The translations under genes were made by a program, and so were the position numbers. Shown in pieces: positions 12,390-49,304 of a DNA stretch of 64,000 nucleotides (position 1 is its first letter; the number at the start of each line of letters is the position of its first letter). Location of the stretch: assembly GCA_023129715.1 (NCBI GenBank), contig JAGMBO010000029.1, positions 1 to 64,000 on the forward strand, given 5' to 3'. Under the pieces are notes generated by a model, which made no database searches, was not told where the DNA came from, and saw only the letters and a list, made by a program, of their open reading frames with translations. The DNA comes from Candidatus Eiseniibacteriota bacterium. GTDB lineage: Bacteria > Eisenbacteria > RBG-16-71-46 > CAIMUX01 > WJJG01.

Positions 12390-12436
12390 AAATGACCGCG
12401 ACAAGGAGACGAAGCTACAAGCACCGGCAATGCCCG

Positions 12437-12472
12437 CGGCGGCGCTCACAGCTGGGCGCCGCCGTTTCTTTT
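12437..12472 (+). terminator. Rho-independent terminator
   Basis: CGGCGGCGC (12437-12445) pairs perfectly with GCGCCGCCG (12456-12464), followed by TTTCTTTT. It separates the protease gene from the membrane operon. Confidence 0.8.
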
Positions 12473-12609: not shown

Positions 12610-13845
12610 GTGGGACGCACGATTCTGTTCCTCCTGCTTGCCACCCTGACCCTGCTCCTGCTCCCGGGAGGGGCCCGTTCCGCGCCGGAACCACCGGCCC
12701 GGCTCACCGCCCGGGACAATCCCAACGACTCGGGCCATGGCATCTTGCTGGAGTGGGAAGCACCCGCCGGCGCGGAGAGCATTCTCGCCTACGAGGTCTT
12801 CCGACTGCCCTGGCGGCCGGAGAGCGAGGGACCACCCCACGCCCCCGATACCCCCGACTCCGTCTGGATCCAGGTGGGCACCGTGCCCCAAGTGGAGGAT
12901 CAGCGTTCCCTCGAGTATGTCGATGAAGACGACGAACGCATGCTCGGAACGGCGGTCAACCAGCATTTCGTGCCCCGCAACGGCTCGGTCTACTACCGCG
13001 TGCGCTCGCTAGCCACCGACGGAACGCGGTCGGCCTTCTGTCCCATCGTCAGCGGCACGGCGATCGGGAACTGGTTCCACACCCAGCGCGTCAACGCGCT
13101 GGTGATTGCGATCATCCTGGGCGCGCTGATGGTCTACTTCATCCGCAAGTCGGCCGGCGGCATCAAGCTCTACATCCGGCCGATTCCGGGGCTCGCCCAC
13201 ATCGACGAGGCGGTCGGGCGGGCGACCGAGATGGGCCGCCCGATCCTCTTCGTCCTCGGCACCGGAACCGCCGGCGACATCGCCACCCTTGCGGCCTACA
13301 CGATCCTGGCACGCGTGGCGCGGATCACCGCCGAGTACCAGACGCCGGTGCTCGTTCCGGTCAACGACCCGGTGATGATGCTCATGGCTCAGGGGACGGT
13401 CAAAGAAGCCTACCTCGAAGCCGGACGGCCCGATCTCTATCGCCCGGAGAACATCTTCTATATCTCGGCAATGCAGTTCCCCTATGTCGCCGCGGTCAAC
13501 GGGCTGATGCTGCGCGAGAAGTGTGCGACCAATTTCTACATGGGCGTCTTCCATGCCGAGAGCCTGCTGCTCGCCGAGGCGGGATCGACGACCGGCGCGA
13601 TCCAGATCTCAGGCACCGATCAAGTTTCCCAGATCCCCTTCTTCGTGGCCGCCACCGACTTCACCCTGATCGGCGAGGAACTCTATGCCGCCTCGGCCTA
13701 TCTCTCGCAGGACCCCAAGCTGATCGGTCCGCTCAAGGCCCAGGACTTCGTCAAGGCAGCGATCCTGCTCATCGCGCTCCTCGGAGTCCTCGAAGCCACG
13801 CTTCTGAGTAGTCAGTGGGTTCGCAGTCTGATCGAGGCGCACTAG
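12610..13845 (+). CDS. Membrane protein with N-terminal FN3-like domain (DUF6754-like)
   Basis: 411 aa from the GTG at 12610, chosen because it begins directly before the signal sequence (GRTILFLLLATLTLLLLPGG) and has GGAAAGGG 7 nt upstream. The frame remains open to 12505. A fibronectin type III-like region (residues about 30-145, with LEWEAPAGAESILAYEVFR and VYYRVRSLATDG) is predicted outside. Then come a membrane helix (ALVIAIILGALMVYFI), an about 220-residue soluble alpha/beta domain (GRPILFVLGTGTAGDIATLAAY, ATNFYMGVFHAESLLLAEAG) and a final membrane helix near the C-terminus. The layout resembles DUF6754 proteins from memory. First gene of a four-gene membrane operon; biochemical role unknown. 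Confidence 0.7.
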   Translation: MGRTILFLLLATLTLLLLPGGARSAPEPPARLTARDNPNDSGHGILLEWEAPAGAESILAYEVFRLPWRPESEGPPHAPDTPDSVWIQVGTVPQVEDQRSLEYVDEDDERMLGTAVNQHFVPRNGSVYYRVRSLATDGTRSAFCPIVSGTAIGNWFHTQRVNALVIAIILGALMVYFIRKSAGGIKLYIRPIPGLAHIDEAVGRATEMGRPILFVLGTGTAGDIATLAAYTILARVARITAEYQTPVLVPVNDPVMMLMAQGTVKEAYLEAGRPDLYRPENIFYISAMQFPYVAAVNGLMLREKCATNFYMGVFHAESLLLAEAGSTTGAIQISGTDQVSQIPFFVAATDFTLIGEELYAASAYLSQDPKLIGPLKAQDFVKAAILLIALLGVLEATLLSSQWVRSLIEAH

Positions 13846-13944
13846 CCGGAGGGGACAGCCGTGGCGGTCCCCCGGAAAGGATGCCGGTATCCGGCCGAAG
13901 GTAATCGCCGGAAACAGGCAGTCGGAACTCGACAGGGGTAGGTA

Positions 13945-14571
13945 ATGAAACGACAGCTTCCCATCATCCTCGTCTTCATCTGCGGCATCACGATGGTCAT
14001 TCAGTTCTTCGTGCCGCACGAATACTCCGAGGATCTGTTTCAGTACGCCAATGACTTCGTCATCGTCATCGGCATTCTCGCCCTGCCGGTCGGCATCTAC
14101 AGCCTGATGACCCAGACCGTGCGCAAGGCACGCCGGGAGCCGAAAGAACGGCTCTACTCCCTGGCAACCATCGCCGGGTTCCTGGTGATGATCATCGCCG
14201 GATCGAGGCGCGAGTGGTTCACGGGTGCGACCTCGCTCAGCTCGAACATGTTCAACTATGTGCTCGTCCCCGCCCAGGCGACGCTCTTCTCGATGCTCGC
14301 CTTCTACATTGCCAGCGCCGCCTACCGCGCCTTCCGCGCCCGGACGCTGCTGGCGGCACTGCTCCTACTCACTGCGTTTGTCGTCATGCTGCGCATGATC
14401 CCCTTGCCCGAGCCGCTCTCGACCTGGAACAACGACGTCGTCCGCTGGATCCTGGAAGTGCCCAACATGGCGGCCAAGCGGGCGATCATCATCGGCGTCG
14501 GACTCGGTGCGGTCACCTACAGTATCAAGATCGTCTTAGGCATCGAACGCTCTTACATGGGAGGAGACTAG
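13945..14571 (+). CDS. Multi-spanning membrane protein of the four-gene operon
   Basis: 208 aa with about six hydrophobic segments: LPIILVFICGITMVIQFF, FVIVIGILALPVGIY, TIAGFLVMIIAG, LFSMLAFYIASAAY, LLAALLLLTAFVVML and IIIGVGLGAVTYSIKIVLG. A basic cytoplasmic loop (VRKARREPKERL) lies after helix two. GGGGTAGGTA precedes the ATG. The next gene begins 4 bp after its stop, so co-translation is likely. No family recognised. The gap from the previous gene (99 bp) shows no terminator. Confidence 0.65.
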   Translation: MKRQLPIILVFICGITMVIQFFVPHEYSEDLFQYANDFVIVIGILALPVGIYSLMTQTVRKARREPKERLYSLATIAGFLVMIIAGSRREWFTGATSLSSNMFNYVLVPAQATLFSMLAFYIASAAYRAFRARTLLAALLLLTAFVVMLRMIPLPEPLSTWNNDVVRWILEVPNMAAKRAIIIGVGLGAVTYSIKIVLGIERSYMGGD

Positions 14572-14575
14572 ACCC

Positions 14576-15424
14576 ATGGCGTGGTACGACCGGCTCCTGG
14601 CCGTCGATCGCCGCTGGATCTACCTGATCCTGGCGGTGGCGGTCGTTATTCCGGCCATCTGGACGATGCACATTCCGGTGAGCCTCTCCAGCGAGGTCGA
14701 GAACGTCTTCGAGCGCGTCTCCGGGATACAAGACGGCAAGATCATGTTCCTGGCGATCGACTACGATCCCTCGACAATGGCTGAGCTGAGCCCGATGGCC
14801 GAGGCGATCCTGCGCCAGGTCTTCCGGCAGAACGGGCGCGTGGTCTTGAGTTCCCTCTCGCAGTTTGGCCCCGCGATGACCGATGAGATCATGACGCGCA
14901 TCGCCGGAGAGATGGGCAAGGTCTCGGGTGAAGACTACGTGTTCCTCGGATACAAACCCTATCCGGCGATCACGATCTTGGCGATGGGCACCGACTTTCG
15001 CGTACCTTTTCCCACCGACTACTACGGTGATCGGGTCGATGATCACCCCATGATGGCCGGCGTGCACAACTTCGATGACGTCGAGTTCGTCCTCTCGCTG
15101 GCCGGCGGCAACGCCGCCGATATGTGGATCGTCTACGGCAACGCCAAGTATGGGGTGCCGCTGGCGCTCGGCGTAACCGGCGTCATGGCGACCGACTACT
15201 ACCCCTACCTGCAGTCGGGACAGCTCTTCGGGCTGCTCCCCGGGATCAAGGGCGCCGCCGAATACGAGCAGCTCAACGAATCCCCCGGCGACGGCTTGCG
15301 CGGGATTCCCTATCAAACCACCTCGCACGCGGTGGTGCTGGTCTTCATCGTGCTGACCAATATCGCTTTCTTCGCCAAGCGTTCCGCCCAGCGCAAGCAT
15401 GGCATGCAGGCGGGGCTGTCGTAG
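14576..15424 (+). CDS. Bitopic membrane protein with large extracytoplasmic domain, unknown family
   Basis: 282 aa. There is one helix at each end (WIYLILAVAVVIPAIWTM near residue 18 and AVVLVFIVLTNIAFFA near residue 258), with an alpha/beta domain of about 210 residues between them. That domain contains IMFLAIDYDPSTMAELSPMA, NGRVVLSSLSQFGPAM, DYVFLGYKPYPAITIL and GNAADMWIVYGNAKYGVPLALGVTGVM. Alternating strand and helix suggest a Rossmann-like fold. GGGAGGAGAC precedes the ATG. Translationally close to both neighbours in the operon. Its soluble domain and that of the first operon gene could be related, but this cannot be shown by eye. Confidence 0.65.
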   Translation: MAWYDRLLAVDRRWIYLILAVAVVIPAIWTMHIPVSLSSEVENVFERVSGIQDGKIMFLAIDYDPSTMAELSPMAEAILRQVFRQNGRVVLSSLSQFGPAMTDEIMTRIAGEMGKVSGEDYVFLGYKPYPAITILAMGTDFRVPFPTDYYGDRVDDHPMMAGVHNFDDVEFVLSLAGGNAADMWIVYGNAKYGVPLALGVTGVMATDYYPYLQSGQLFGLLPGIKGAAEYEQLNESPGDGLRGIPYQTTSHAVVLVFIVLTNIAFFAKRSAQRKHGMQAGLS

Positions 15425-15456
15425 TTCTCGAGTAGCGGGAGAAGAGGAACACTGCT

Positions 15457-16095
15457 ATGGATCCAACGAGTGCCTGGGGAATGGTCTGGCGGGGCATCGC
15501 CGCCCTGATAACGCTCGCGATCTTCTCCTTCCTCTGGCGGGACAACCCGGTGTACAAGTTCATCGAGCGCCTGTGGGTCGGGGTCGTCACCGGCTACTGG
15601 ACAATGCTGCTCTACTACACGAGCTTCACCGACAAGGTGCGCGTGCCGATCTTCGAAGAGGGGCAATGGTGGTATATCTTCCCCTCCCTCCTTGGGGTGC
15701 TGATGTGGTTCCGGCTCTCGAAGAAGTACGGGTACGTCTCACGGTATGCGCTCGCCTTCTACATCGGGATCTCGACCGGCGTCTTCATTCCGCTGACGAT
15801 CAAGACCTCGATTCTCTACCAGGTCCAAGGCACGATCCGCGCGATCGATCCAACGTGGACCGGGATCATGTTCGGGATCGCCTTCCTCGGCATTCTCTGC
15901 TCGCTGAGCTACTTCTTCTTCTCCAAGGAACACACCGGTGTCCTGGGAGTCAGCTCGAAGATCGGCATCTACACCCTGATGATCGGCTTCGGCGCCGGCT
16001 TCGGCCTGACCGTGATGGGGCGTGTCGCCCTGCTGGTGCAGCGGGTGATCTTCCTGCGCGACTATGGAATCGACTTGCTTGGGGGCGGGCTCTGA
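15457..16095 (+). CDS. Multi-spanning membrane protein, last gene of the operon
   Basis: 212 aa with about six hydrophobic stretches, including IAALITLAIFSFLW, WWYIFPSLLGVLMWF, YALAFYIGISTGVFIPL, MFGIAFLGILCSLSYFFF and IYTLMIGFGAGFGLTVMGRVALLV. A hydrophilic stretch with DNPVYKFIERLW sits after the first helix. GAGAAGAGGAAC lies upstream of the ATG, 32 bp after the previous stop. The operon ends at a perfect hairpin terminator 36 bp downstream. No recognised family. Confidence 0.65.
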   Translation: MDPTSAWGMVWRGIAALITLAIFSFLWRDNPVYKFIERLWVGVVTGYWTMLLYYTSFTDKVRVPIFEEGQWWYIFPSLLGVLMWFRLSKKYGYVSRYALAFYIGISTGVFIPLTIKTSILYQVQGTIRAIDPTWTGIMFGIAFLGILCSLSYFFFSKEHTGVLGVSSKIGIYTLMIGFGAGFGLTVMGRVALLVQRVIFLRDYGIDLLGGGL

Positions 16096-16131
16096 AGCCC
16101 CCGGTAACTCGGGGCAGCGCGAGTGGATTGT

Positions 16132-16175
16132 GAAAGACCGCAGGCGTCCCACGAGGGTGGCGCCTGCGGTCTTTC
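16132..16175. terminator. Bidirectional rho-independent terminator
   Basis: A perfect 15-bp inverted repeat, GAAAGACCGCAGGCG / CGCCTGCGGTCTTTC, with a 14-nt loop. The A/T-rich ends serve both directions. It sits between the converging membrane operon and the secreted-protein gene ending at 16192. Confidence 0.9.
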
Positions 16176-16191
16176 GCTTCCGCGTCGATGC

Positions 16192-18138
16192 TTACCGGAT
16201 CACCACGCTGCGCAGCACGACCTCCCGCCCGGCACCGATTAGGCGCATGAAGTAGACGCCGGCTCCGACCCGCTCGCCGCGCTGCGTACGTCCATCCCAG
16301 GCGAGTTGGTAGACCCCGGCGGCCAGATCGCCTTCCTGCAGCGTGCGGATCAGACGGCCGTTGACGTCGAAGGCACGCAGGGAAACCCGCTCGGGGCGTT
16401 GCAGCACCAGGCGGAGCTGCGTGCACCCGGTATGGGGATTCCCGCCGATGAGCGAGTAGGCGAAGTGATCTCCTGCCGGAGCGGCGATCTCGGCTTCCTG
16501 CTCGAGGCACTCGGGCGTGCCGACGACGATGCGTAACTGCGCCACTCCCGGCTCGGTGATCTCGGTCTCATAGGCGCCCCCCGGAGCGCAGTCGATCCAG
16601 ATCTCGCTCTCGAGATCGATCAGGCGGACGCCATACCCGTCGGGCAGCTCTTCCGGGAGTTCCCAGGTCAGACGGACCGGACCCGTCTTGCCGGTGACGA
16701 GCTCGACGGCCCAGGTATCGCCCGGGTCGGTCACCGGCCGCACGTCGCATCGCATCGCCTGCAGGCCGGCGGACATGTCGGTATTGACGACGCGCGCCAG
16801 CATTGCCTGCTCGAAGGCGGCCGGGGGCATGAGTTGGTCGCGGGTGTCCCAGCCTGGGGCCGCCTCGTCCGCCGATCCCATCCCGAGGGTGACGGGTGCG
16901 CCGTCGCCGAGCCGCGCGGTCAACTGCAGCGACCAGTCGGGCGCCGGTGCCGGCACGGGCGACTGGGGCGTGCTCCACAAGTATGCCTCATTCGCCGGGA
17001 GCACGAGATCGATCGCCGTCTCGCCCAAGTTGGCAATGAAGTACCCCGTCCAGGGCGCGAGCACCTCTGTCTCCGCCAGGTGGTGCTGCCCGTCGTAGGC
17101 GTGGAGCGGCCAGGCTTCCAGCAGTTCGGCGGCGACCGCCTGGGCCAGCGTCAGTTTCTGGGTACCGTCATCGATCAGCACATCACCGAGGGCAACATCA
17201 TAGGCGAAGGGATTGCCGATCTGGTTCCAGCCGGGAGAGAGTGGAATGGCGATACCTTCCTCGGCGGCCGCGAAGACGGTCCCGCCCGTGAAATCGACAG
17301 TGCGGGCCGCGCGGGTGAAGAGCCAGAAGGCTTTTCCCGGTGCGAAGGACTGGGCCGCCTCGGTCCCGGCCTCGGCATATGTTCGGCTCTCCGGGTCCCA
17401 GCGCCCGCAGCGCCAGGCCTCACTCGGTTCCCCAAGGTCGTCGCCGAGAACCGCCTCGACCGAACCATCCGCGAGCACGGCCGGCACGCTGATCATGCGG
17501 CAGGCGCCGGCGGCGACGGCCAGCGCGCCCTCTCCGTGATCCTCGACCACCTGGACACCCTGCTGGAGGGGCGCACCATCATAGTCCCGCACCGGAGAGC
17601 GAGTAACCCGACCCGGCTCGTGAGCCTCGATGTAGTACTCGACCCCGCGCAGCCCGATCGCCTCTTCAGGAATCACCGCCGCCCAATCTCCATCGCTCTG
17701 CGCCAGCATCGGCAGGCAGGTGAATTCGCGCTGGCCGGCCAGACGGTAGTAGAGCAACACCGAGTCGGCCGGGGTCGGCGAGACGATCTCCGCCTCGACC
17801 GAGAGCGTGTCTCCCGCCTCGATCCAGGTGGATTCCGCTGGTCGCTCACGGATCACGAAGGGTTCCACCAGCCCGGCGAGGATCCCCGCCGAGAGGGACT
17901 TGCCGGCGGGATCGTGGAACGCCACCGCACTGGCCGGCTGGCCGATCGCGGCGACCTGTTCCCAGGCCCCCGCCGTGCGCGTACCACCGGCGGCGACCCA
18001 GGCGCAACGTCCCGGGGTCACCTCCTGCGCCGCGGCGTCAGGGAGGACCGCCGCCTGTGCACAGACTGCCGCTGCGAGGAGAAGGGCAAGGATCAGTCTG
18101 CGTGGTTCGCCGGACCCGCAGCTCGTATCTCGCAACAT
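16192..18138 (-). CDS. Secreted protein with FlgD-like C-terminal sorting-type domain
   Basis: 648 aa. A signal peptide (LILALLLAAAVCAQAA) is cleaved about residue 38. The body is beta-rich: an N-terminal region with ESTWIEAGDTLSVEAEIVSPTP (interaction-type beta sandwich), then LSPGWNQIGNPFAYDVALGD and APWTGYFIANLGE, a pattern common in secreted proteins of this bacterial style that carry the FlgD-like tail. The C-terminal domain ends with RTQRGERVGAGVYFMRL. No catalytic motif recognised. GGGAGG lies 6 nt upstream of the ATG. It follows the tail-collar gene on the same strand by 108 bp and may be co-transcribed. Confidence 0.75.
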   Translation of the reverse strand: MLRDTSCGSGEPRRLILALLLAAAVCAQAAVLPDAAAQEVTPGRCAWVAAGGTRTAGAWEQVAAIGQPASAVAFHDPAGKSLSAGILAGLVEPFVIRERPAESTWIEAGDTLSVEAEIVSPTPADSVLLYYRLAGQREFTCLPMLAQSDGDWAAVIPEEAIGLRGVEYYIEAHEPGRVTRSPVRDYDGAPLQQGVQVVEDHGEGALAVAAGACRMISVPAVLADGSVEAVLGDDLGEPSEAWRCGRWDPESRTYAEAGTEAAQSFAPGKAFWLFTRAARTVDFTGGTVFAAAEEGIAIPLSPGWNQIGNPFAYDVALGDVLIDDGTQKLTLAQAVAAELLEAWPLHAYDGQHHLAETEVLAPWTGYFIANLGETAIDLVLPANEAYLWSTPQSPVPAPAPDWSLQLTARLGDGAPVTLGMGSADEAAPGWDTRDQLMPPAAFEQAMLARVVNTDMSAGLQAMRCDVRPVTDPGDTWAVELVTGKTGPVRLTWELPEELPDGYGVRLIDLESEIWIDCAPGGAYETEITEPGVAQLRIVVGTPECLEQEAEIAAPAGDHFAYSLIGGNPHTGCTQLRLVLQRPERVSLRAFDVNGRLIRTLQEGDLAAGVYQLAWDGRTQRGERVGAGVYFMRLIGAGREVVLRSVVIR

Positions 18139-20835: not shown

Positions 20836-21870
20836 CTACACGTTGAAGAGAAAGTGGCAGGTATCGCCATCCTCGAGTACGTAGTCCTTGCCCTTCAGCT
20901 GCAGCTTCCCTTGCTCCTTGGCGGCCCTCTCCGATCCGGTGGCGACGATGTCGTCGTATCTGACGATCTCGACGCGGATGAATCCGCGCTCGATGTCGCT
21001 GTGGATCTTGCCTCCCGCCTGCGGCGCCCGCGAACCCTTCCGAATCGTCCAGGCGCGGACCTCGTCCTTGCCGGTCGTATAGAAGGACATCAGCCCCTGA
21101 GCGTCATAGGCGGCCGCATTCAGGCGATCGAGCCCCGCGGCCTCCAGCCCGAGTGCGGCAAGAAACCCGCCGCGCTCATCCGGATCCTCGATCGCGGCGA
21201 TCTCCTCTTCGATCTTGCACGATACCGCCAGACTACCCGGTGGCTGGGGCTCGGCGACTGCGCCCTCCGAGACGTTGTAGGCCCAGAGGACGGGCCGCAT
21301 GGTGACCAGGCACAGGCTGCGGATCGCGGCGCGCGCTTCGTCACTGAGCTCAAGACGATTGAGTGGCTGATTGCTCTCAAGCGCCTCGGAACACTTGATC
21401 AGCACTCGCTCCTCGTTGATCTGCGCGGCTGTGGCACGACCCGCCTTCTTCTCCTTGCCGATCCGCAGCAGGCGGTTCAGAACCACTTCCAGGTCGGCCA
21501 GGATGAGTTCGGCATCGAGCAGCCGTCGATCCCGCTCGGGATCGACCGATCCGGCAGCGTGATAGACATGGTCCGACTCGAAGGCGCGCACGACGATACA
21601 GAGCAGATCGCTACGACGGGCGGCATCGAGCCACGCGTGGGTCGGGGCGCCCTCGACGAGATCGGGACACAGAACGATGTTGTTCTCGGCATAGGTCACC
21701 TTGCGCGGCTCGAAGATCCGCGCGAGCACCTCCACGCGGGGATCGCGAATCCGGGCGATGCCCTCGATGCATTCTCCCGGCTTGCGGTTCTCCGGCACCC
21801 GGCGGCCGGTGAGCAGCGTGAAGAGCGTGCGCTTGCCCGAGTGGGAAAGTCCCATGAGTGCGGTCTTCAC
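20836..21870 (-). CDS. Divergent YchF/Obg-type P-loop ATPase
   Basis: 344 aa from GTG 21870 (AAGG 8 nt upstream). The P-loop reads GLSHSGKRT instead of the usual G-x-PNVGKST. The base-recognition motif NVSE (in LWAYNVSEG) matches the NVxE element that gives YchF its ATP preference. The C-terminal DUF933/TGS-like domain is intact: GLMSFYTTGKDEVRAWTIRKGS, GKIHSDIERGFIRVEIV and a final KGKDYVLEDGDTCHFLFNV. YchF associates with ribosomes and stress responses. A second, canonical YchF may exist elsewhere. The typical switch DxPG is replaced by CPDLVEGAPTH, so nucleotide turnover could differ. Confidence 0.8.
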   Translation of the reverse strand: MKTALMGLSHSGKRTLFTLLTGRRVPENRKPGECIEGIARIRDPRVEVLARIFEPRKVTYAENNIVLCPDLVEGAPTHAWLDAARRSDLLCIVVRAFESDHVYHAAGSVDPERDRRLLDAELILADLEVVLNRLLRIGKEKKAGRATAAQINEERVLIKCSEALESNQPLNRLELSDEARAAIRSLCLVTMRPVLWAYNVSEGAVAEPQPPGSLAVSCKIEEEIAAIEDPDERGGFLAALGLEAAGLDRLNAAAYDAQGLMSFYTTGKDEVRAWTIRKGSRAPQAGGKIHSDIERGFIRVEIVRYDDIVATGSERAAKEQGKLQLKGKDYVLEDGDTCHFLFNV

Positions 21871-24304: not shown

Positions 24305-24665
24305 GACCTCCTCCCTGGTCCGGGCATTCGCCGCGGGCATGATAGGCGGGAATCCCTAGCTAGGCACGGCCTTTCGCCGAAGCCATCCCGGGGTCCCGGG
24401 GCCAGTCACAGGAGACGATGGCCATGACGGCTCGACCCTGGACCAAGACGAGGCCCCCGGCTTCCCGTAGCTCGCCGCACGGCAAGGCAACCGGGCCATC
24501 CCCGGCAGGGCGACCGGCCGGGGAGGCGACACACCCACCGACACACCCACCGCCCTTGCGGATGCCGCGCTTGATGTGCCAATCTCACCTGCTGCAACAG
24601 GAAGCGGCAGGAGGGCTGGGGCGCGGCCCGGCCGACCGGGTCCTCCAAGGTGACCCATGCAACCG

Positions 24666-24773
24666 GGCAAGCCACGAACGCCGAGGCGGTACGGCAGGTC
24701 ACCAACGCCAAGGCGACCCGGCAAGCCACGAACGCCGAGGCGACCCGGCAAGCCATCGACGCCGGGCAGGTAC
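24666..24773 (+). repeat. Four 27-bp tandem repeats upstream of the lyase-SelD gene
   Basis: Units 24666-24692, 24693-24719, 24720-24746 and 24747-24773, consensus ggcaagccacgaacgccgag plus gcgaccc. The SelD-fusion frame is open through them and would read as 9-residue repeats (RQATNAEAT), but the conserved domain and the better start lie downstream at 24800. The rest of the gap 24305-24665 shows no gene. Confidence 0.8.
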
Positions 24774-24799
24774 CGGTGTCCAGAAACGCAGGATCACCG

Positions 24800-27253
24800 A
24801 TGAGCGGTCTGATCTACCTCGACTACAACGCGACCACCCCGATCGCTCCCGAGGTCGCCGCCGCCATGCGTCCCTACCTCGAAGGCTTCTTCGGCAACCC
24901 CTCCAGCTCGCATTCCCTCGGCATCGAGGCACGACGGGCGGTCGAGCAGGCCCGCCGGCAGGTGGCCGCACTGCTCGGCTGCCATCCGGATGAGATCGTC
25001 TTCACCAGTGGCGGTAGTGAGTCGAACAACGCGGCGATCAAGGGCACCGCCTACCTCCTGCGCGATCGCGGCCGGCACATCATCACCTCGGCGATCGAGC
25101 ATCCCGCCGTCACGGAAGTCTGCCGCTTTCTCGAGGGCGAGGAATTCCGGGTGACCTATCTGCCGGTCGATCAGACCGGGCTCGTCGACCCGGCTGCCGT
25201 CGAACGGGCGATCACGCCCGAGACGATCCTCGTGACCATCATGCACGCCAACAACGAGGTCGGCACGATCCAGCCGATTGCCGAGATCAGCCGCATCGCC
25301 CGCGCCCGCGGCGTGCCCCTGCACACCGACGCCGCCCAATCGGTCGGCAAGATTCCGACACTGATCAACGAGCTCGGCGTCGATCTCCTCTCGATCGCCG
25401 GCCACAAGTTCTATGCACCGAAAGGCATTGGCGCCCTCTTCATTCGTCGCGGCATCGAGCTGACGACGCTCGTCCATGGGGCGGATCACGAGCAGAACCG
25501 CCGCGCGGGCACCGAGAACGTCCTAGAGATCGTCGGCCTGGGAAAGGCCGCCGAGATTGCCGCCCGCGACCTCGGGCGCAACTCCGCCCACATGCGCACG
25601 CTCCGCGACCGGCTGCGCGCTACGCTGACGCAGGCGGTCCCCGATCTGCGGGTCAATGGTGGCCCACAAGCCTGCCTGCCGAACACGCTCAGTGTCTCCT
25701 TCCCCGGTCTCGAGGCGAATACGATCCTCGATGAACTGGAGCACGTCGCCGCATCCGCGGGCGCGGCATGTCACGCCGATCAGATCGATGTCTCCCACGT
25801 GCTCGAGGCGATGGGCCTCCCCGAACGGATCGCGATGGGGACGATCCGCTTCTCGGTCGGCCGCGAAACCACTCCCGAGGAGATCGACCGGGCCGCGGGC
25901 GAGGTCCTCGCCGTCATCGGGCGGATGCGCGGTGTCGCCGATGGAACAGAGGGCACCGGAGAGGCCATCGAGTCCGGGTTTGCGCGCGCTGATTCGGGCG
26001 CCGGCGCGGATGCGGGGGCAGGCGCGGATGGGGGGACCGACGCGCATGCGGGGGCCAGCGCGGATGCGGGGGCCGACGCGCATGCGGGGACCAGCGCGGA
26101 TGCGGGGGCCGACGCGCATGCGGGGGCAGGCATCGCTGCGGGTCCGGGCACGGGTGCGCGGGTGGAGGCAGACACAGGTGCAGGTGCCGCCCTGCCCGAT
26201 GGCACCGTCCGGCTGACTCGCTTCACCCATGGCCTCGGGTGCGCGTGCAAGATCCAGCCGCAGGCGCTCGAGGAGATCTTGAAGCAGATCCCGCGGATCG
26301 CCGATCCCGCGTTGCTCGTCGGCACGGAGACCTCCGACGACGCCGCCGTCTACCGGATCTCGCCCGACCTGGCGATCGTCGAGACGCTCGATTTCTTCAC
26401 GCCCATCGTCGATGACCCGCGCGCCTTCGGCGCGATCGCCGCCGCCAATGCGCTCAGTGACATATACGCAATGGGGGCGAAACCGATCTTCGCCCTCAAC
26501 ATCGTCGGCTTCCCCGTACGGCGCCTGCCGATGTCGGTGCTCAAGGAGATCCTCGCCGGGGCGAGCGAGATAGCCGAGGAGGCGGGGATCCCGATCGTCG
26601 GCGGCCACTCGGTCGAGGACACCGAGCCGAAGTTCGGCTGGGCGGTGACCGGGCTTGTCCATCCCGATCGCATCCTCGCCAATAGCACCGCGCGTCCCGG
26701 CGATGCCCTGATCCTCACCAAGCCGATCGGGCTCGGCATCCTGGCGACCGCGGCCAAGCGGGGGGCGGCGAGTGCGGCGAGCATCGCGCAGAGCACGGCG
26801 GTGATGACCGCGCTGAACCGAACCGCGGCGGAGACGATGGAATCCTATCCGGTCAGCGCCTGCACCGATGTCACCGGCTTCGGCCTGATCGGACATCTGC
26901 TGGAGATGACTGCCGGCAGCGGCGTCGAGGCGGAGATCTGGGCCGATGCGGTGCCGGTGCTCGAGGAAGCCCGGGACTGGGCCCTGGCGGGGATCGTCCC
27001 GGGCGGAACCAAGGACAATCTCGAACACGTGAGCAAGGATGTCACCTGGGACCGCGCGATCCCGATGGTCGAGCGGCTGATGCTCTGCGATGCCCAGACC
27101 TCGGGGGGGCTGCTGATCAGCCTCCCGGAAGCGCGGGCCACCGACCTTGTCACTGAGTTGCGGGATTCGGGGATTTCTGAGGCGGCTTGGATTGGACGAG
27201 TGACCGGGCCCGGGCAGGGAACCATCCGGGTCGTCCCTGAGCGCCAACAGTAA
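24800..27253 (+). CDS. selD: Cysteine desulfurase/selenocysteine lyase-like - selenophosphate synthetase fusion
   Basis: 817 aa, two enzymes in one chain. Residues 1-385 are a class V PLP enzyme: LDYNATTPIAP, GGSESNN, His101, DAAQSVGK, PLP lysine 203 in GHKFYAPKG, and catalytic Cys324 in SAGAACHADQ. That Cys loop, as I recall the family, is closer to selenocysteine lyase (GAACH) than to IscS/NifS (GSACS). Residues about 395-465 are a Gly/Ala/Asp/His linker encoded by a tandem repeat. Residues 470-817 are SelD: Cys481 and Lys484 in HGLGCACKI, TSDDAAVY, DFFTPIVDDP, GGHSVEDTEPK. SelD makes selenophosphate from selenide and ATP. The front domain would release selenium for it. ATG 24800 has AGGA 6 nt upstream. 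No selA/selB/tRNA-Sec lies in the window. Confidence 0.92.
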   Translation: MSGLIYLDYNATTPIAPEVAAAMRPYLEGFFGNPSSSHSLGIEARRAVEQARRQVAALLGCHPDEIVFTSGGSESNNAAIKGTAYLLRDRGRHIITSAIEHPAVTEVCRFLEGEEFRVTYLPVDQTGLVDPAAVERAITPETILVTIMHANNEVGTIQPIAEISRIARARGVPLHTDAAQSVGKIPTLINELGVDLLSIAGHKFYAPKGIGALFIRRGIELTTLVHGADHEQNRRAGTENVLEIVGLGKAAEIAARDLGRNSAHMRTLRDRLRATLTQAVPDLRVNGGPQACLPNTLSVSFPGLEANTILDELEHVAASAGAACHADQIDVSHVLEAMGLPERIAMGTIRFSVGRETTPEEIDRAAGEVLAVIGRMRGVADGTEGTGEAIESGFARADSGAGADAGAGADGGTDAHAGASADAGADAHAGTSADAGADAHAGAGIAAGPGTGARVEADTGAGAALPDGTVRLTRFTHGLGCACKIQPQALEEILKQIPRIADPALLVGTETSDDAAVYRISPDLAIVETLDFFTPIVDDPRAFGAIAAANALSDIYAMGAKPIFALNIVGFPVRRLPMSVLKEILAGASEIAEEAGIPIVGGHSVEDTEPKFGWAVTGLVHPDRILANSTARPGDALILTKPIGLGILATAAKRGAASAASIAQSTAVMTALNRTAAETMESYPVSACTDVTGFGLIGHLLEMTAGSGVEAEIWADAVPVLEEARDWALAGIVPGGTKDNLEHVSKDVTWDRAIPMVERLMLCDAQTSGGLLISLPEARATDLVTELRDSGISEAAWIGRVTGPGQGTIRVVPERQQ
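26003..26130 (+). repeat. 18-bp/36-bp tandem repeat encoding the inter-domain linker
   Basis: About seven units of 18 bp (type gcggatgcgggggccgac / gcgcatgcgggggccagc) alternate, giving six-residue repeats ADAGAD and AHAGAS. It sits exactly between the lyase and SelD domains, and copy-number change would leave the frame intact. Confidence 0.85.
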
Positions 27254-41653: not shown

Positions 41654-44600
41654 ATGGCGACACGGACGCCGAGGAAGAAGGCCACTCGTCGAAGCATCGC
41701 CCGGAAGGCGAGCAGCGCCGGCCCGATGACGAAGCGCGCCCCCCGGGCGGCAGCCCGCCCCCACCCGCAGGCGCCGGCGCCGAGCGGTCCGCAGCCCGGC
41801 TACTATCGCTTCCCTGCGATCCATGGCGAGCGGATCGCTTTTTGCAGCGACGACGATCTCTGGGTTGTGGGGGTCGAGGGGGGCATCGCCCGCCGGCTGA
41901 CGGTCAGCAAAGGCGCCGTCACTCGGCCGGTCTTCTCACCCGATGGAGAACAGATCGCCTTCGCCGCCACCGACGAGGGGGCCAGCGAGATCTACGTCAT
42001 CGCCGCCGGTGGTGGTGAGACCCGCCGGCTGACCTTCCTGGGCGCGATGACCTTCCCGGTCGCCTGGTCCCGCGACGGGCGCGAGATCATCTTCGCCAGT
42101 GATGCCGGCCAGGCCTTCATCAACGATCATCATCTCTGCGCGATCCCGCCCACTGGTGGGCCGCATCGCCGCCTGCCGCTCGGGCCCGCCCGGGCGATCA
42201 GCTTCCAGCCCGACGGACCCGGCGTGGCGATCGCCCGCAACGGCGGCGACCCGGCGCGCTGGAAGCGCTACCGGGGCGGCACGGTGGGCACGCTCTGGGT
42301 CGACCGCGCCGGGGATGGTGCGTTCACCCAGATCTTGAAGTCCATCGAGGGTAATCTGGCGAGTCCGATGTGGATCGGCGGGCGGATCTACTTCCTCTCC
42401 GACCACGAGGGCATCGCCAATCTCTACTCGGTGCGTCCCGACGGCCGCGGCGCCCGCCGGCGGCACACCCACCACGAGGAGTTCTACGCGCGCTTCCCCA
42501 CCACCGACGGCCGCCGCATCGTCTACCATGCCGGGGCCGACTTGCATCTGTATGATCTCGCCGCCGGTGAGAGCCGCCGGTTGCCGGTCGAAGTCCATTC
42601 CTCGCGCTCCCAGCGTCAGCGCAAGTTCATCGCTGGCGGAACGCTGGAGGACTACGATCCCCATCCCGACGGCCACTCGCTATTGCTGACCGTGCGCGGG
42701 CGTTCGCTGGCCATGGGTCTCTGGGAAGGTCCGGCGACCGAGTTCGGCACCCCCTGGCGCGGCCGCCACCGTCTGGCGCGCTGGCTCAACGATGGCAAGC
42801 GCTTCGTCGCGCTCACCGATGAGGAAGGCGAAGAACAGCTCGAGATCGTCACTCCGGGCGAGAAGAGCGCGCGGATCGACGTCGGCGCGGACATCGGTCG
42901 CGTGCTGATCATGGAAGTCGCCCCGCCGCCGCCCTCGCCGGAGGAACCCGCGGGCACCCGCAAGAAGAAGGGCAAGAAGGCCGCCAAGAAGACGCCGCGG
43001 CCCAAGCCCGCACCCGATGTAATTGCGATCACCAATCACCGCCAGGAGCTCTTCGTCATCGATCTGACCGCCAAACGCACCCGGCGCATCGATCACAGCC
43101 CCTCTGACCGCATCGCGGGCATCAGTTGGTCGCCCGACGCACGCTGGTTGGCCTATGGCTTCAGTGTCGGGCGGCGCAACCGGGAGATCCGCATCGCCGA
43201 TGCCCAGACGGGAACGTCGCGGGCGGTGACCTCGGGGGACTTCATCGACTTCGCCCCCTGTTTCGACCCGGAGGGCAAGTACCTCTACTTCCTCTCCCTG
43301 CGGACCTACGATCCCGTCTACGACCTGATCCAGTTCGGTCTCGGCTTCCCGCGGGGCGTGCGCCCCTACCTGGTCACGCTCACCGAGGATGAGACCTCTC
43401 CCTTCCTTCCCGCTCCCCGGCCGCTGGGGCCCGCGAAGCCCGGCAAGAGTCTGGGCAGCAATCCCTGGGAGGTGGCGGCCGAACCGGGCAAGGAGGGCGC
43501 CTCCGGAGGCGCTGCGGAGCAAGAGGAGCCCAAGGGCCCGCGGAAAGTTGCGATCGACTGGGAAGGCATCGAGCGACGGGTGCTCGCGATCCCCGTGCCC
43601 GAGGGGCGCTATCGCCGGGTCGCCGCAATTCCCGGCAAGATCTTCTTCCTCGCCGATCCGATCGCCGGCAGCCTGGGGCAGACCTGGGCGCTCGGAACGC
43701 CGGCGGCGAAGTCGAGCATCGAGGTCTACGACCTGCGTGAGCTGAAGAGCGCGACCTTCGTCAGCGGGGTCACTGATTTCGTGATCTGTCGCGACCGCAA
43801 GACGCTCGTCTACCGCACGGGGGCCCGGCTGCGCGCCCTGGCGGCGACCGGCGAGCCGGGCAAGGCACCGGCCGATGAGAACCCCGGCCGGGCCAGCGGA
43901 TGGATCGATCTCGAGCGGGTGCGCTGCTCGGTCGACCCGACCACCGAATGGCGGCAAATGCTGGCCGAGACCTGGCGCTTGCAGCGCGATCAGTTCTGGG
44001 TCGCCGACATGTCGCGCGTCGATTGGCAGCGGGTCTATCAGCGCTACGCCCCGCTCGTCGAGCGCGTCTCGACACGGGGCGAGCTCTCGGATCTGATCTG
44101 GGAGATGCAGGGCGAGTTGGGCACCTCCCACGCCTACGAATTGGGCGGTGACTATCGCCACCCACCGAGCTATCCGGTCGGATTTCTGGGCGCCGACCTT
44201 GCCTGCGACCCGGAGACGGAGGCCTGGACCGTTACCCGGATTCCGCAAGGCGACCCCTGGGATCCGAACCAGACCTCCCCGCTGGGAGTCCCTGGTCTGC
44301 GCATCCGCCCGGGCACACGCATCCACGCGGTCAACGGGATCCCTGTCGGGCGCGATCGTTCCCCCCACGAGTGCCTCGTCCACCGCGCCGGCCAGGAAGT
44401 TTGGCTGACGATCTCCGATCCGCAGCCGGCCGGCAAAGGAGGCCGCAAGAAAGGGACGGGCCGGAGGCGCGCGGCCGCGCGGCGCACGGTCACCACCAGG
44501 ACGCTCGGCGCCGAGTACGCGCTGCGCTACCGCGATTGGGTCGAGGGCAATCGGGCCTGGGTGCATGCACAGAGCGCGGGCCGCATCGGCTACGTCCACA

Positions 44601-45235
44601 TTCCCAACATGGGCCCCCTCGGATACTCGGAGTTCCATCGCTATTTCCTAGCCGAACTCGACCGCGATGGACTGATCATCGATGTCCGCTACAACGGCGG
44701 GGGACACGTCTCCCAGCTACTGCTCGAGAAGCTGATGCGCAAGCGCGCCGGCTACGATGTGCCGCGCCACATGGCGCTCGAGCCCTATCCCTCCGAATCG
44801 CCGCGCGGGCCGATGGTCGCGTTGACCAACGAGCTCGCCGGGTCGGATGGCGACATCTTCAGCCACTGCTGGAAGATCTACGGGCTGGGGCCCTTGATCG
44901 GCAAGCGCACCTGGGGAGGCGTGATCGGCATCTGGCCGCGGCATGCGCTCGTCGACGACACGATCACGACCCAGCCGGAGTTCTCCTTCTGGTTCAAGGA
45001 TGTCGGCTGGGCGGTGGAGAACTACGGCACCGACCCGGACATCGAGGTCGACATCCGGCCGCAGGACTATGCCGCCGGCGTCGATCCACCGCTCGCCCGC
45101 GGTCTCAAGGAGGTCCAACGCCTCAGCCGGCGCTACCGCGAAGCGCTCCCCGACCTGCGGGACCGCCCCAGCCGGGCTCTGCCACGGCTGCCGGGCCGGC
45201 GTCCGGACGCTCGCGGGGATCGGACGCGACGCTAG
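41654..45235 (+). CDS. Tricorn-type S41 protease
   Basis: 1193 aa, near the size of archaeal tricorn. A basic Lys/Arg/Ala/Pro-rich head (about residues 1-45) has no signal peptide. Two beta-propeller regions follow with TolB-like repeats (FSPDGEQIAFAATDEG, WSRDGREIIFASD, WSPDARWLAYGFS). Then come a helical C1 region (ETWRLQRDQFWVADMS), a PDZ-like segment (GLRIRPGTRIHAVNGIPVG) and the S41 core, with nucleophile Ser1064 in NELAGSDGD and GKRTWGGVIGI. Two charged low-complexity inserts (KKKGKKAAKK near 440; GASGGAAEQEEP near 615) are extra loops. GAGGAGG lies 5 nt before the ATG. Likely degrades oligopeptides in the cytoplasm. Confidence 0.93.
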   Translation: MATRTPRKKATRRSIARKASSAGPMTKRAPRAAARPHPQAPAPSGPQPGYYRFPAIHGERIAFCSDDDLWVVGVEGGIARRLTVSKGAVTRPVFSPDGEQIAFAATDEGASEIYVIAAGGGETRRLTFLGAMTFPVAWSRDGREIIFASDAGQAFINDHHLCAIPPTGGPHRRLPLGPARAISFQPDGPGVAIARNGGDPARWKRYRGGTVGTLWVDRAGDGAFTQILKSIEGNLASPMWIGGRIYFLSDHEGIANLYSVRPDGRGARRRHTHHEEFYARFPTTDGRRIVYHAGADLHLYDLAAGESRRLPVEVHSSRSQRQRKFIAGGTLEDYDPHPDGHSLLLTVRGRSLAMGLWEGPATEFGTPWRGRHRLARWLNDGKRFVALTDEEGEEQLEIVTPGEKSARIDVGADIGRVLIMEVAPPPPSPEEPAGTRKKKGKKAAKKTPRPKPAPDVIAITNHRQELFVIDLTAKRTRRIDHSPSDRIAGISWSPDARWLAYGFSVGRRNREIRIADAQTGTSRAVTSGDFIDFAPCFDPEGKYLYFLSLRTYDPVYDLIQFGLGFPRGVRPYLVTLTEDETSPFLPAPRPLGPAKPGKSLGSNPWEVAAEPGKEGASGGAAEQEEPKGPRKVAIDWEGIERRVLAIPVPEGRYRRVAAIPGKIFFLADPIAGSLGQTWALGTPAAKSSIEVYDLRELKSATFVSGVTDFVICRDRKTLVYRTGARLRALAATGEPGKAPADENPGRASGWIDLERVRCSVDPTTEWRQMLAETWRLQRDQFWVADMSRVDWQRVYQRYAPLVERVSTRGELSDLIWEMQGELGTSHAYELGGDYRHPPSYPVGFLGADLACDPETEAWTVTRIPQGDPWDPNQTSPLGVPGLRIRPGTRIHAVNGIPVGRDRSPHECLVHRAGQEVWLTISDPQPAGKGGRKKGTGRRRAAARRTVTTRTLGAEYALRYRDWVEGNRAWVHAQSAGRIGYVHIPNMGPLGYSEFHRYFLAELDRDGLIIDVRYNGGGHVSQLLLEKLMRKRAGYDVPRHMALEPYPSESPRGPMVALTNELAGSDGDIFSHCWKIYGLGPLIGKRTWGGVIGIWPRHALVDDTITTQPEFSFWFKDVGWAVENYGTDPDIEVDIRPQDYAAGVDPPLARGLKEVQRLSRRYREALPDLRDRPSRALPRLPGRRPDARGDRTRR

Positions 45236-45539: not shown

Positions 45540-48500
45540 ATGACATCCGGACTCATCGCCTTCCGGCAGGCTCGGCAGACCCGATCCCTCGGTATCGGTA
45601 CTGCTGTTCTGTTCCTGCTCATGCTCTTTGCGCTCCCGGGCGCGGCCCTGACCCGCTTGCCCTTGACGGCCGACGCCGAGTCGAGCCGGCCCGAGTTGAC
45701 CCTGCTCGAGGCAAGCGAGGAGGGCGCACGGATCCTCTTCGAGCTTCCCGCGCTGGAGATCGAAACCTACCAGCTCGCCGGCGAGACGTTCCATGCGGCG
45801 CTCTTCGCCGGGTGCGAGCTGGTCGGCGCCGCGGGGCAACCGGCGCTGCCGGCGATGACGCGCTTCGTCGCCCTCCCATCGCGGGCGGGGGCACAGCTTC
45901 GCGTGCTCTCCATGGAAGAAGAGATCCTCCCCGGCTTCCGGCTCCTCCCGATGCAGCCCGACGAGGGAACGACCTTCGCCCAGGATGCGGCTGCCTATCA
46001 GAAGGATGCCTTCCTCGGGGGCGAGCCGGTCGCCGTCGGCGCGCCCCTGCTGATGCGCGGCCTGCGGGTGGTTCCGGTGACCTTCCGGCCGGTGCAGTAC
46101 AACCCTCACCGTGGCGAACTCCGCGTACTCCGTCGCGTCGAGCTGGCAATCGATTTTGCCGGAGAAGACCTGCGCAATCTCAGCCGGCGCGCATCCCTTC
46201 CCGCCTCCGCCGGATTCGATCCGCTCCATTGCTCCTCGGTGATCAACTACGACGCCGTCCGCGCCACGCGGGAGACCCCCGCCGCCGATCATCTCGGCAC
46301 GTGGCTGATCATCTCGCGAGACAACTCCACGGTGCTGAGCTATCTCGAACCGCTTGTCGCCTGGCGCCAGCGCATGGGATACAACGTCGTCCAAGTAACG
46401 ACCAACCAAACCGGAACATCGCCATCTTCGATCAAGAACTACATTCAGAACGCCTACGACACTTGGGACGATCCACCCGCATACATCGTGATCGTCGGCG
46501 ATGCCAGCGGCACCTTCCCGATCGACACCTTCGTCGAGGATAACTCGGGCTACGATGGCCGCGGCGACCACCCCTATGTACAACTTGATGGCGATGATGA
46601 TCTACCCGACGCCTTCATCGGACGGCTATCCGCCCGCTACACCACCGAGCTGCGCCTGATCACCCACAAGATCGTCTCCTATGAGACCGCGCCCTATATC
46701 GACGGGCCTGACTGGTTCTCGCGGGCCTGTCTCATCGGCGACATCCAATCGGTCTCGGGCATTACCTGCATGCACGTGCAGCAGTGGCTCAAGGAGCGCC
46801 TCGTCGATCTCGGCTACACGGCGATCGACACCATTTGGAACATCCCCTACGTGCTGCAGATCGAACACTCGGTAGACCGAGGGGTCTCCTACCTCGGCTA
46901 CCGCGGCTACTACGGCATGAGCGGGTGGGATATCGGCGACATCTCTGCCACGCGCAACGGCCGTGGCATGATGCCCTTCGCCGTCAACCTGACCTGTGAT
47001 ACGGGCACCTGGTACTCGGGCACGGCGCGCAGTGAAGCCTGGCTGCTCGCCGGCAGCTATCCCGACAGCCTGAGCGGCGGGATCGGCAGCATCGGCACGG
47101 CGACCCCCGGCACGGCGACGCGCTATAACAACTGCTTCTATGGCGGCACGGCCTATGGGCTCTTCTGGGATGATCACTACCAGATCGGCGCCGCCCACGC
47201 GCGCGGCAAGGTCGAGATGGTGCTCAACTATGGCACGACGCACCCGTTGACGACGAACACCTACTGCCATTGGAACACCTTGATCGGTGATCCGGCCACC
47301 GAGATCTGGACCGCCTGGCCCCGCACGCTGGTTGTCGATCACCCGCTCGTGCTGCCGACCGGCGCCAACCGGACGGCGGTGACCGTCGAGGACGACGCGG
47401 GCTTCCCGATCGCCGGGGCGTGGGTCCATCTCTTCCAGGAGGGCACGATCTCGACCGGCGCCGAGACCGACGCGCTCGGCGAAGTCGTCCTACCGGTACC
47501 TTCCGGCGCTGCGGGCACGGTCGCGATCACCGTCACCGGGCACAATCTCTATCCCTATCAAGGCGACATTCAGATTCAGCAGCTGACGAGATTCGTGGGC
47601 ATGTCGGCCTACACAATCGACGATGGGGCGATTTACCCCGGAAACGGTAACGGCAGCGGGGCGCTGAATCCGGGCGAGCAGATCGGCATCGAAGTTGAGC
47701 TTCACAACACCGGGCTCGTCCCGGCCTACGATGTCTCGCTGACGATGACTTCGGACGACCCCTATGCCGGGATCATCTCCGCGGGCCCCGTCTCCTATGG
47801 GACGATCTACGCGGGCGCGACGGGGACGCCCTCATCGGGGGATCTGGTCTTGCGGATCCCCAAGTCGACGCCGGATGGCCATGAGCTCGTCTTCGATCTC
47901 GCCGTCTCGGATCAATCCGGCACCTGGCAGTCCCGCCTCGCGCTGACCGTCCTGGCGCCCAGCCTGATCTACGAAGACCATGTCTTGACCGGCTGCGACG
48001 AGGTTTTCGATCCGGGCGAGTCGGCCGAGTTGACCGTCTCGTTGCGCAACGTGGGTGCGATCACCGCCCCGGGACCGATTTCCGCCTACCTGAGCTCGGA
48101 CAACTACTGGATCCAGGTCATCGATCCCGATGGCACCTATGACGACTCGATCGCCAAGAACGACGACGCGACGAATAGCTCCGACCCCTTCGAGATCGTC
48201 GCGCCCGCCGATGCGATCCCCGGCCAGCTCATTCCGCTGCGCCTGGCGCTCACCTGCGCCGATGGCTCCCAGGACACCGCGCAGGTCTTCGTGACCCTCG
48301 GCACGAAGGCGACGAGTGACCCGACCGGACCTGACGCCTACGGCTATTTCGCCTATGATCACACCGATGTCGCCTACCCCGAGGCGCCGGTCTACGATTG
48401 GATCGACATCACCGGCACGGGCAGCGAGGTTGGGCTGACCGACTATGGATACGACGACGACGATTCCAAGGTCGTCGACCTTCCCTTTGTCTTCACCTTC

Positions 48501-49304
48501 TACGGCGAGGATTTCGATCGGGCCACGATCTGCTCGAACGGCTGGATGGCGATGGGATCGACTTACCTGATCAACTACCGCAACTGGTACATGCCGAGCG
48601 CCGGCGGGCCCGCCTACATGATCGCACCCTTCTGGGATAACCTCCACCAGCACAGCAACGGCAAGGTTTACCATTGGTTCGACCAGGCCAATCACCGCTA
48701 CATCGTCTCCTGGGACAACGTTTGGAACTATGAGTGCTATCAGGCGGTCGAGAGCTGTCAGGCAATCCTCTACGATCCGGACCACTATCCGACCTACACC
48801 GGCGATGGCGTGATCGTCTTCCAGTACAAGCACATCAACCAGGTCGACTTCCAGCAGATGTACTCGACCTCCGGCATCCAGAACGGCGATCACACCGTCG
48901 GACTGACCTACAGCTACTCCAATCGGCGCCCTCCCGGTGCGGTTTTCTTCTATCACCCGCTGGCGATCAAGTTCACCACCGGTAGCCCGGGCGCCGCTGC
49001 GGCGCACTCCGCGGGCTCCGCGCAGCCTAGGGTCTTCCTGGCGCCGAGCCGGCCCAACCCCTGTTCACGCGCAACGACGATCCGCTTCGGGCTCGATCAG
49101 CCCGGACCGGTCGGCTTGCGGCTCTTCGATCCTGACGGCCGTCTGGTGCGGACGCTGATCCGGGGCGTCCTCCCGCCGGGCGACCATGAGATCGAGTGGC
49201 AGGGCCGCGATGAAGCGGGGCACCTACTGCCAAGCGGTGTCTACTTCTACCGCCTCGAGACCGACGATGGGCAGCTCTCGCGCCAGCTCCTGCTGATGCG
49301 TTAG
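45540..49304 (+). CDS. Secreted C25 (gingipain-like) peptidase-fold protein with FlgD-like tail
   Basis: 1254 aa. Signal peptide to about residue 36. A propeptide-like region (ELPALEIETYQLAGETFHAA, GQPALPAMTRFVALP) precedes the C25 fold: WLIISRDNSTVLSYLEPLV, WRQRMGYNV, IVIVGDASGTFPIDTF, DAFIGRLSA. Cys486 in NLTCDTGTW fits the nucleophile. At the catalytic-His position the sequence is GYRGYYGMSGW with Arg455, so the usual His-Gly is absent. Beta-sandwich repeats and a propeller-like region follow, then the FlgD-like domain (PSRPNPCSRATTIRFGL, SGVYFYRLE). It could be inactive, or use another residue. Confidence 0.82.
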   Translation: MTSGLIAFRQARQTRSLGIGTAVLFLLMLFALPGAALTRLPLTADAESSRPELTLLEASEEGARILFELPALEIETYQLAGETFHAALFAGCELVGAAGQPALPAMTRFVALPSRAGAQLRVLSMEEEILPGFRLLPMQPDEGTTFAQDAAAYQKDAFLGGEPVAVGAPLLMRGLRVVPVTFRPVQYNPHRGELRVLRRVELAIDFAGEDLRNLSRRASLPASAGFDPLHCSSVINYDAVRATRETPAADHLGTWLIISRDNSTVLSYLEPLVAWRQRMGYNVVQVTTNQTGTSPSSIKNYIQNAYDTWDDPPAYIVIVGDASGTFPIDTFVEDNSGYDGRGDHPYVQLDGDDDLPDAFIGRLSARYTTELRLITHKIVSYETAPYIDGPDWFSRACLIGDIQSVSGITCMHVQQWLKERLVDLGYTAIDTIWNIPYVLQIEHSVDRGVSYLGYRGYYGMSGWDIGDISATRNGRGMMPFAVNLTCDTGTWYSGTARSEAWLLAGSYPDSLSGGIGSIGTATPGTATRYNNCFYGGTAYGLFWDDHYQIGAAHARGKVEMVLNYGTTHPLTTNTYCHWNTLIGDPATEIWTAWPRTLVVDHPLVLPTGANRTAVTVEDDAGFPIAGAWVHLFQEGTISTGAETDALGEVVLPVPSGAAGTVAITVTGHNLYPYQGDIQIQQLTRFVGMSAYTIDDGAIYPGNGNGSGALNPGEQIGIEVELHNTGLVPAYDVSLTMTSDDPYAGIISAGPVSYGTIYAGATGTPSSGDLVLRIPKSTPDGHELVFDLAVSDQSGTWQSRLALTVLAPSLIYEDHVLTGCDEVFDPGESAELTVSLRNVGAITAPGPISAYLSSDNYWIQVIDPDGTYDDSIAKNDDATNSSDPFEIVAPADAIPGQLIPLRLALTCADGSQDTAQVFVTLGTKATSDPTGPDAYGYFAYDHTDVAYPEAPVYDWIDITGTGSEVGLTDYGYDDDDSKVVDLPFVFTFYGEDFDRATICSNGWMAMGSTYLINYRNWYMPSAGGPAYMIAPFWDNLHQHSNGKVYHWFDQANHRYIVSWDNVWNYECYQAVESCQAILYDPDHYPTYTGDGVIVFQYKHINQVDFQQMYSTSGIQNGDHTVGLTYSYSNRRPPGAVFFYHPLAIKFTTGSPGAAAAHSAGSAQPRVFLAPSRPNPCSRATTIRFGLDQPGPVGLRLFDPDGRLVRTLIRGVLPPGDHEIEWQGRDEAGHLLPSGVYFYRLETDDGQLSRQLLLMR

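Follow-up and report, generated by a model that had tools for sequence, protein, structure and literature searches.

A dedicated four-gene membrane system marked by DUF6754 and its link to a MutL-type ATPase module

What kind of machinery is encoded by four adjacent membrane protein genes, only one of which belongs to a named protein family? This question is raised by positions 12610 to 16095 of a 64,000-nucleotide stretch of DNA from Candidatus Eiseniibacteriota bacterium (assembly GCA_023129715.1, contig JAGMBO010000029.1, positions 1–64,000, forward strand), here referred to as the window. An earlier note, made from the sequence alone, had described this locus as a dedicated set of four consecutive membrane genes with tight spacing and a terminator on each side. 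We found that these genes, designated A, B, C, and D, represent a dedicated membrane system of four genes, of which several ancient paralogues exist, and that the system is functionally linked to an ATPase module consisting of three genes, termed c2, c1, and c0, of which c1 encodes a MutL protein. Both conclusions are well supported.

The four open reading frames (ORFs) are all located on the plus strand and arranged as previously described, and their codon-position GC is typical for coding sequences. The product of gene A (12610–13845, GTG start) starts with a hydrophobic segment and an extracytoplasmic FN3 domain, followed by a transmembrane (TM) helix, a predicted cytoplasmic alpha/beta domain, and a C-terminal TM helix. 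Its proposed resemblance to DUF6754 was confirmed by the profile search (PF20539; E 4.7e-107, 357 bits against a gathering cut-off of 27), with the matching region (13066–13806) covering the TM helix and the alpha/beta domain. The FN3-like part could be verified as well: this domain (12682–13074, model residues 23–155) matched titin-type FN3 domains at the profile level and FN3 structures at the fold level (best Z 12.8). Genes B (13945–14571) and D (15457–16095) encode polytopic membrane proteins with six and about six predicted TM helices, respectively. Gene C (14576–15424) encodes an alpha/beta domain between two TM helices. The tight spacing holds for B–C (4 bp) and C–D (32 bp), but not for A and B, which are separated by 99 bp.

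Beyond DUF6754, we did not find any known family in this locus. No Pfam or NCBIfam model reached its cut-off for B, C, or D, and their profiles gave no match among PDB sequences up to E 1. A–D had no match to defence or phage families in PADLOC and PHROGs, and such an origin was therefore rejected. Secretion-system component families, type IX or other, were not detected in A–D either, since only DUF6754 reached a cut-off in Pfam, NCBIfam, and PHROGs. Membership in a known transporter or secretion system, which the earlier note had named as one outcome that would speak against a dedicated complex, was thus not observed. Our literature searches returned no paper on DUF6754 or PF20539. Further searches on the MutL/GlmL ATPase, glutamate mutase, glycine cleavage, lipoate, Planctomycetes signature proteins, and candidate-phylum membrane complexes led to titles and abstract openings in which the system is not described. 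Its novelty therefore rests on the absence of a functional family or paper match in these named searches, and it may have been described elsewhere.

The dedicated nature of the gene set is strongly supported by its conservation. Five DUF6754 genes are present in the genome of the window (4.83 Mb, 186 contigs), and a C gene lies near each of them. The full A-B-C-D order was read at all four other loci, whose A proteins are 41–46% identical to that of the window. The phylum of the window was represented by 47 genomes, 45 of which contain DUF6754 in copy numbers from one to seven; among those with at least 90% completeness and at most 5% contamination, all 26 do. None of 14 well-known control genomes contained it. 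A scan of named genomes yielded at least 577 relatives, the best 80 of which were retained; the resulting organism list leans towards close relatives. According to the record titles, the carriers among these 80 include Zixiibacteriota, WOR-3, Stahlbacteria, Cloacimonadota, Poribacteria, Latescibacterota, Coatesbacteria, Edwardsbacteria, Eisenbacteria, Fermentibacter-type bacteria, Planctomycetota, and anammox genera. In searches with hidden Markov models (HMMs) built from the five paralogues, 107 of the 130 A matches at the loci examined had B, C, and D downstream in this order and in the same orientation. The remaining 23 include matches truncated by locus ends as well as genuine splits or a lone A. 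Because all four genes recur in order across phyla, their association is not due to chance, and the scattering of homologues without co-occurrence that had been considered beforehand did not occur. A Stahlbacteria contig carries an A gene without adjoining B, C, or D (L037, 6953–8059, plus strand).

The Planctomycetota, defined here as the phylum of locus L039 (Loosdrechtia), which also contains the "Planctomycetota bacterium" genome of L059, were represented by 294 genomes. A was found in 97 of them, and the A-bearing and C-bearing genome sets are identical (97/97), including several genomes with a split operon. Mirror-tree correlations among A–D ranged from 0.58 to 0.80, compared to at most 0.11 in permutations, with shared species history included in these values. 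In a midpoint-rooted tree of the joined A–D alignments (107 operons), two deep groups were resolved. Members of both groups occur together in tandem arrays of two or three, for example in the three-fold Zixibacteria arrays, and the copy of the window clusters with the third copy of the Zixibacteria triples (support 1.0). Since tandem arrays hold both deep types, the paralogues are anciently diverged and do not reflect recent redundancy.

The ATPase module was identified by clustering the neighbouring genes (loci L019–L102): three genes, c2, c1, and c0 in this order, recurred immediately upstream of A. The c1 product is a member of the MutL family (PF13941, E 1.7e-131), and its phosphate motifs DCGSTTTKA and GVDIGGATTD showed little or no variation across 16 sequences from several phyla. 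It scored below the NCBIfam cut-offs for curated GlmL (NF040745, 242 versus 475 bits), ornithine GlmL-like (NF040744, 233 versus 600 bits), and GlmL-family proteins (TIGR01319, 178 versus 204 bits). The glutamate mutase E subunit GlmE (PF06368) exceeded its cut-off in none of the 47 genomes of the window's phylum, with two weak sub-threshold matches. A glutamate mutase role of the ATPase was therefore rejected for this phylum, and because the protein fails the GlmL cut-offs and glutamate mutase is absent there, its role is a different one. The c0 protein (about 380 residues) may be barrel-sandwich-like, as judged from weak local similarity to RnfC_N (E 5e-4, 20.5 versus a cut-off of 25.6 bits) and NQRA_N (16.1 versus 25 bits), both sub-threshold; its C-terminus shows a weak SPT5/KOW-like match (E 0.03). 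The c2 protein (about 140 residues) had no match in Pfam, and its PDB matches did not rise above noise. No ABC family match was found among A–D, c0, MutL, and c2.

In several phyla, this module immediately precedes A, often with glycine-cleavage and lipoate-ligase genes beside it. In the window's phylum, MutL and c0 were found in 44 and 43 of the 47 genomes, respectively, and each in all 26 high-quality genomes. The c0 gene adjoins MutL in all 43 genomes and A in 28 of them. The genome of the window harbors one full MutL and one c0 for its five ABCD sets. For genomes reached through named loci of many phylum labels (the search covered all of 37 chosen loci except L085), c0 was present in 35 of 36, one of which apparently overlaps with the sample of the window's phylum. 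It is a same-strand neighbour of A in 14 of these 35 by hand count. In Planctomycetota, c0 occurs in 91 of the 97 genomes with A compared to one of the 197 others (Fisher p 2e-67, uncorrected for descent), and two genomes of 7.7–7.8 Mb on essentially one contig (L118, L129) contain all seven genes contiguously in the order c2-MutL-c0-A-B-C-D. In another planctomycete (L119/L120), c0-A-B is distant from C-D with all subunits kept, and at L121/L122 MutL-c0-A is separate from B-C-D. Genes that are separated yet co-retained argue for a joint function. At L116 (9951–12902) and L117 (3154–5760), both on the minus strand, a single ORF of about 870–1000 residues encodes a second, divergent type of MutL together with a fused c0-like part.

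How might these proteins be arranged? The AlphaFold models show the order FN3, TM helix, alpha/beta domain, TM helix for A (predicted local distance difference test score, pLDDT, 92.2) and TM helix, alpha/beta domain, TM helix for C (pLDDT 96.0), in agreement with the earlier description of C as a bitopic protein with a Rossmann-like extracytoplasmic domain. The two proteins described as polytopic, B and D, are indeed so. The charge distribution places both ends of B inside, while the topology of D is uncertain, with four clear segments in a hydropathy scan and about six by eye. In their models, the alpha/beta domains of A and C share the same order of elements, that is, seven helices alternating with six strands between two TM helices. 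Based on charge distribution and models, the domain of A is predicted to face the inside and that of C the outside. The two domains may be homologous, which we keep as a hypothesis only.

The alignments of the four proteins included 75/75 (A), 64/65 (B), 79/80 (C), and 71/72 (D) of the references. In the alpha/beta domain of A, many near-invariant polar residues follow strand ends (e.g., Q289, E317, T336, Q341, and E356), as would be expected for a ligand pocket or an active site. No cysteine is conserved at ≥95% in A–D, and a redox complex was therefore rejected. At the same threshold, no histidine is conserved in the alpha/beta domain of either A or C; the only near-invariant histidine of C, H251, is located within a TM helix. 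Two kinds of extension were observed at the outer face: a Cloacimonadota A with about 700 additional N-terminal residues ahead of DUF6754 (L092, 4748–7774, plus strand), and, in a predicted outer loop of planctomycete B proteins, insertions of about 400 residues (L122, 10515–12380, minus strand; L126, 4762–6612, plus strand). The fold matches of A are dominated by the FN3 domain, which masks its alpha/beta domain. Those of C include an RCK/TrkA-type domain (Z about 9) amid many Rossmann-like matches; among those listed, transhydrogenase domain III is the only further domain of transporter type.

The reading that we prefer, to which we give somewhat less than an even chance, is that ABCD is a hetero-oligomeric inner-membrane complex of permease- or gate-like type with several specificities, serviced by a shared ATPase module. 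B and D would form its polytopic core, and A and C, each anchored by two TM helices, would contribute alpha/beta domains on the cytoplasmic and the outer face, respectively. The GlmL-like ASKHA ATPase together with c0 and c2, usually present in one copy per genome, would service one to seven such membrane complexes. As the most likely mechanism, ATPase and c0 would act on the cytoplasmic domain of A, and nucleotide turnover would drive or reset a conformational change through B and D, while the outer domain of C would bind a substrate or partner. Our data show the gene set with its order, co-occurrence, and paralogy, the linkage to the ATPase, and the predicted folds; the physical complex of the four proteins, the action of the ATPase on A, its direction, the transport or gating output, and the substrate are what we infer.

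Several observations weigh against this proposal. Profile comparisons gave no significant A–C homology in any setting and did not support homology between B and D. The fold of C gives no function, its matches being generic Rossmann-like structures (Z 10.1, 9.6, and about 9), and in Foldseek its model had no match below 1e-3. Mirror-tree values reflect shared descent besides interaction. The c0 gene is apart from A in 15 of the 43 genomes of the window's phylum, and in the genome of the window c2-MutL-c0 is located on another contig, with no linkage to any of the five ABCD operons. Two or three MutL genes, partly of the fused type, are present in some genomes. Moreover, the glycine cleavage and lipoate neighbours described below do not suggest a transport substrate.

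The strongest alternative, which we nevertheless regard as unlikely, is an envelope-biogenesis or protein-handling complex that acts at the outer face in assembly, folding, or anchoring, with the ATPase module powering or regulating assembly. The elaborate outer face, with the FN3 domain of A and the additions to A and B mentioned above, would fit such a role, as would the several paralogues per genome and the M23 peptidase adjoining A at the Cloacimonadota loci. However, the most constant neighbours, the MutL-like ATPase, c0, and c2, are not envelope genes, and A–D lack any protease, chaperone, or secretion family match. Clearly less probable is a membrane regulator or sensor of one-carbon or glycine metabolism, in which C would sense an external ligand and A would relay the signal to MutL/c0, thereby controlling glycine cleavage or lipoylation. 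This idea comes from the genes gcvT, gcvPA, gcvPB, and lipoate ligase, found beside the c2-MutL-c0(-ABCD) unit (HMM-verified at L112, by eye elsewhere). A GcvP cluster also lies upstream at six of the clustered genome loci, and GcvP-like genes adjoin the module in the window's genome (by eye). But most ABCD copies, including that of the window, are distant from glycine-cleavage genes, and the contiguous planctomycete units at L118 and L129 have no such genes by eye. As the sole explanation, a linkage to glycine cleavage was therefore rejected as a general rule. Other ABCD copies have different neighbours, as read from the sequence: AroK/AroB-like genes in Poribacteria and GlgC-like genes at L019 and the WOR-3 loci, where the nucleotidyltransferase of L019 was verified.

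A B12-related system, finally, appears very improbable. Here, the alpha/beta domains would carry a corrinoid, which the GlmL-like ATPase would reactivate or load in the manner of mutase reactivases or a corrinoid methyltransferase pump. MutL family membership, the presence of alpha/beta subunits, and the C1-metabolism neighbours point in this direction, but the ATPase falls below every curated GlmL cut-off, and GlmE exceeds its own in none of the 47 genomes of the window's phylum. In corrinoid complexes of the Mtr or mutase type, a conserved histidine in the alpha/beta domain serves as cobalt ligand. Neither alpha/beta domain has one, and H251 of C is placed in the membrane.

The surroundings of the operon in the window complete its description. 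Folding energies bore out the terminators on both sides: a hairpin with a 13-bp stem is located upstream (12436–12465, plus strand; -26.9 kcal/mol, z -4.2), and a second one follows D (16130–16177, no strand assigned; -44.9 kcal/mol, z -7.6). The A-rich and T-rich flanks of the latter suggest that D and the convergent gene at 16192 share it. A simple terminator scan detected only the upstream hairpin, with one terminator-like site in the region compared to a shuffle mean of 2.4, that is, fewer than in shuffled sequence. The operon is flanked by two secreted FlgD_ig proteins, an uninformative context. Elsewhere, the window encodes a 344-residue protein with a YchF-type C-terminal domain and an N-terminal part without Pfam match (20836–21870, minus strand) and, on the plus strand, a fusion, within a single ORF, of a class-V aminotransferase with an AIR-synthase-like (SelD/PurM-type) domain (24650–27253), a Tricorn-type protease comprising a PD40 propeller as well as PDZ and S41 domains (41654–45235), and a large secreted peptidase of the C25 (gingipain) type that has a propeptide and a C-terminal FlgD_ig domain (45540–49304).

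Taken together, ABCD is likely to be part of core physiology that is invisible to current annotation, since all high-quality genomes of its phylum keep it, with as many as seven copies, and a third of the sampled Planctomycetota carry it. The preferred shared-ATPase reading can be extended to a new class of ATP-dependent membrane machine, with inverted twin alpha/beta subunits (A in, C out) on a B/D core that is energised or reset by an ASKHA ATPase shared among paralogous complexes. We consider this extension rather doubtful. If true, it would stand beside the ABC- and rotary-type energised systems as another kind of arrangement, one that planctomycetes possess and that is nearly universal in some candidate phyla; should the ATPase drive the membrane part, ATP would be coupled to a membrane process in a new way. 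The ASKHA ATPase link offers a testable handle, and a cultured host may exist because some carriers are single-contig planctomycete genomes.

Compared to known families, gene A is a full member of the Pfam DUF6754 entry, which names a single domain without a function and whose name covers neither the four-gene set nor the ATPase module. The ATPase shares PF13941 membership and intact phosphate motifs with the GlmL/MutL family, but differs in scoring below the cut-offs, in occurring without GlmE, and in its co-occurrence with a membrane complex. The c0 protein weakly resembles the barrel-sandwich domains of RnfC and NqrA, but its unit contains no other recognised Rnf or Nqr subunit. C appears to share its general fold with the RCK domains of TrkA and MthK and with other Rossmann-like domains, whereas its own domain is predicted to face outward and the match is generic and neutral with respect to function. 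In group II ECF transporters and shared-ATPase ABC importers, many membrane modules are served by one shared ATPase per genome. The proposed arrangement resembles these systems by analogy in combining one ATPase with many modules, but here the ATPase is of the ASKHA type and the membrane subunits are unrelated by sequence.

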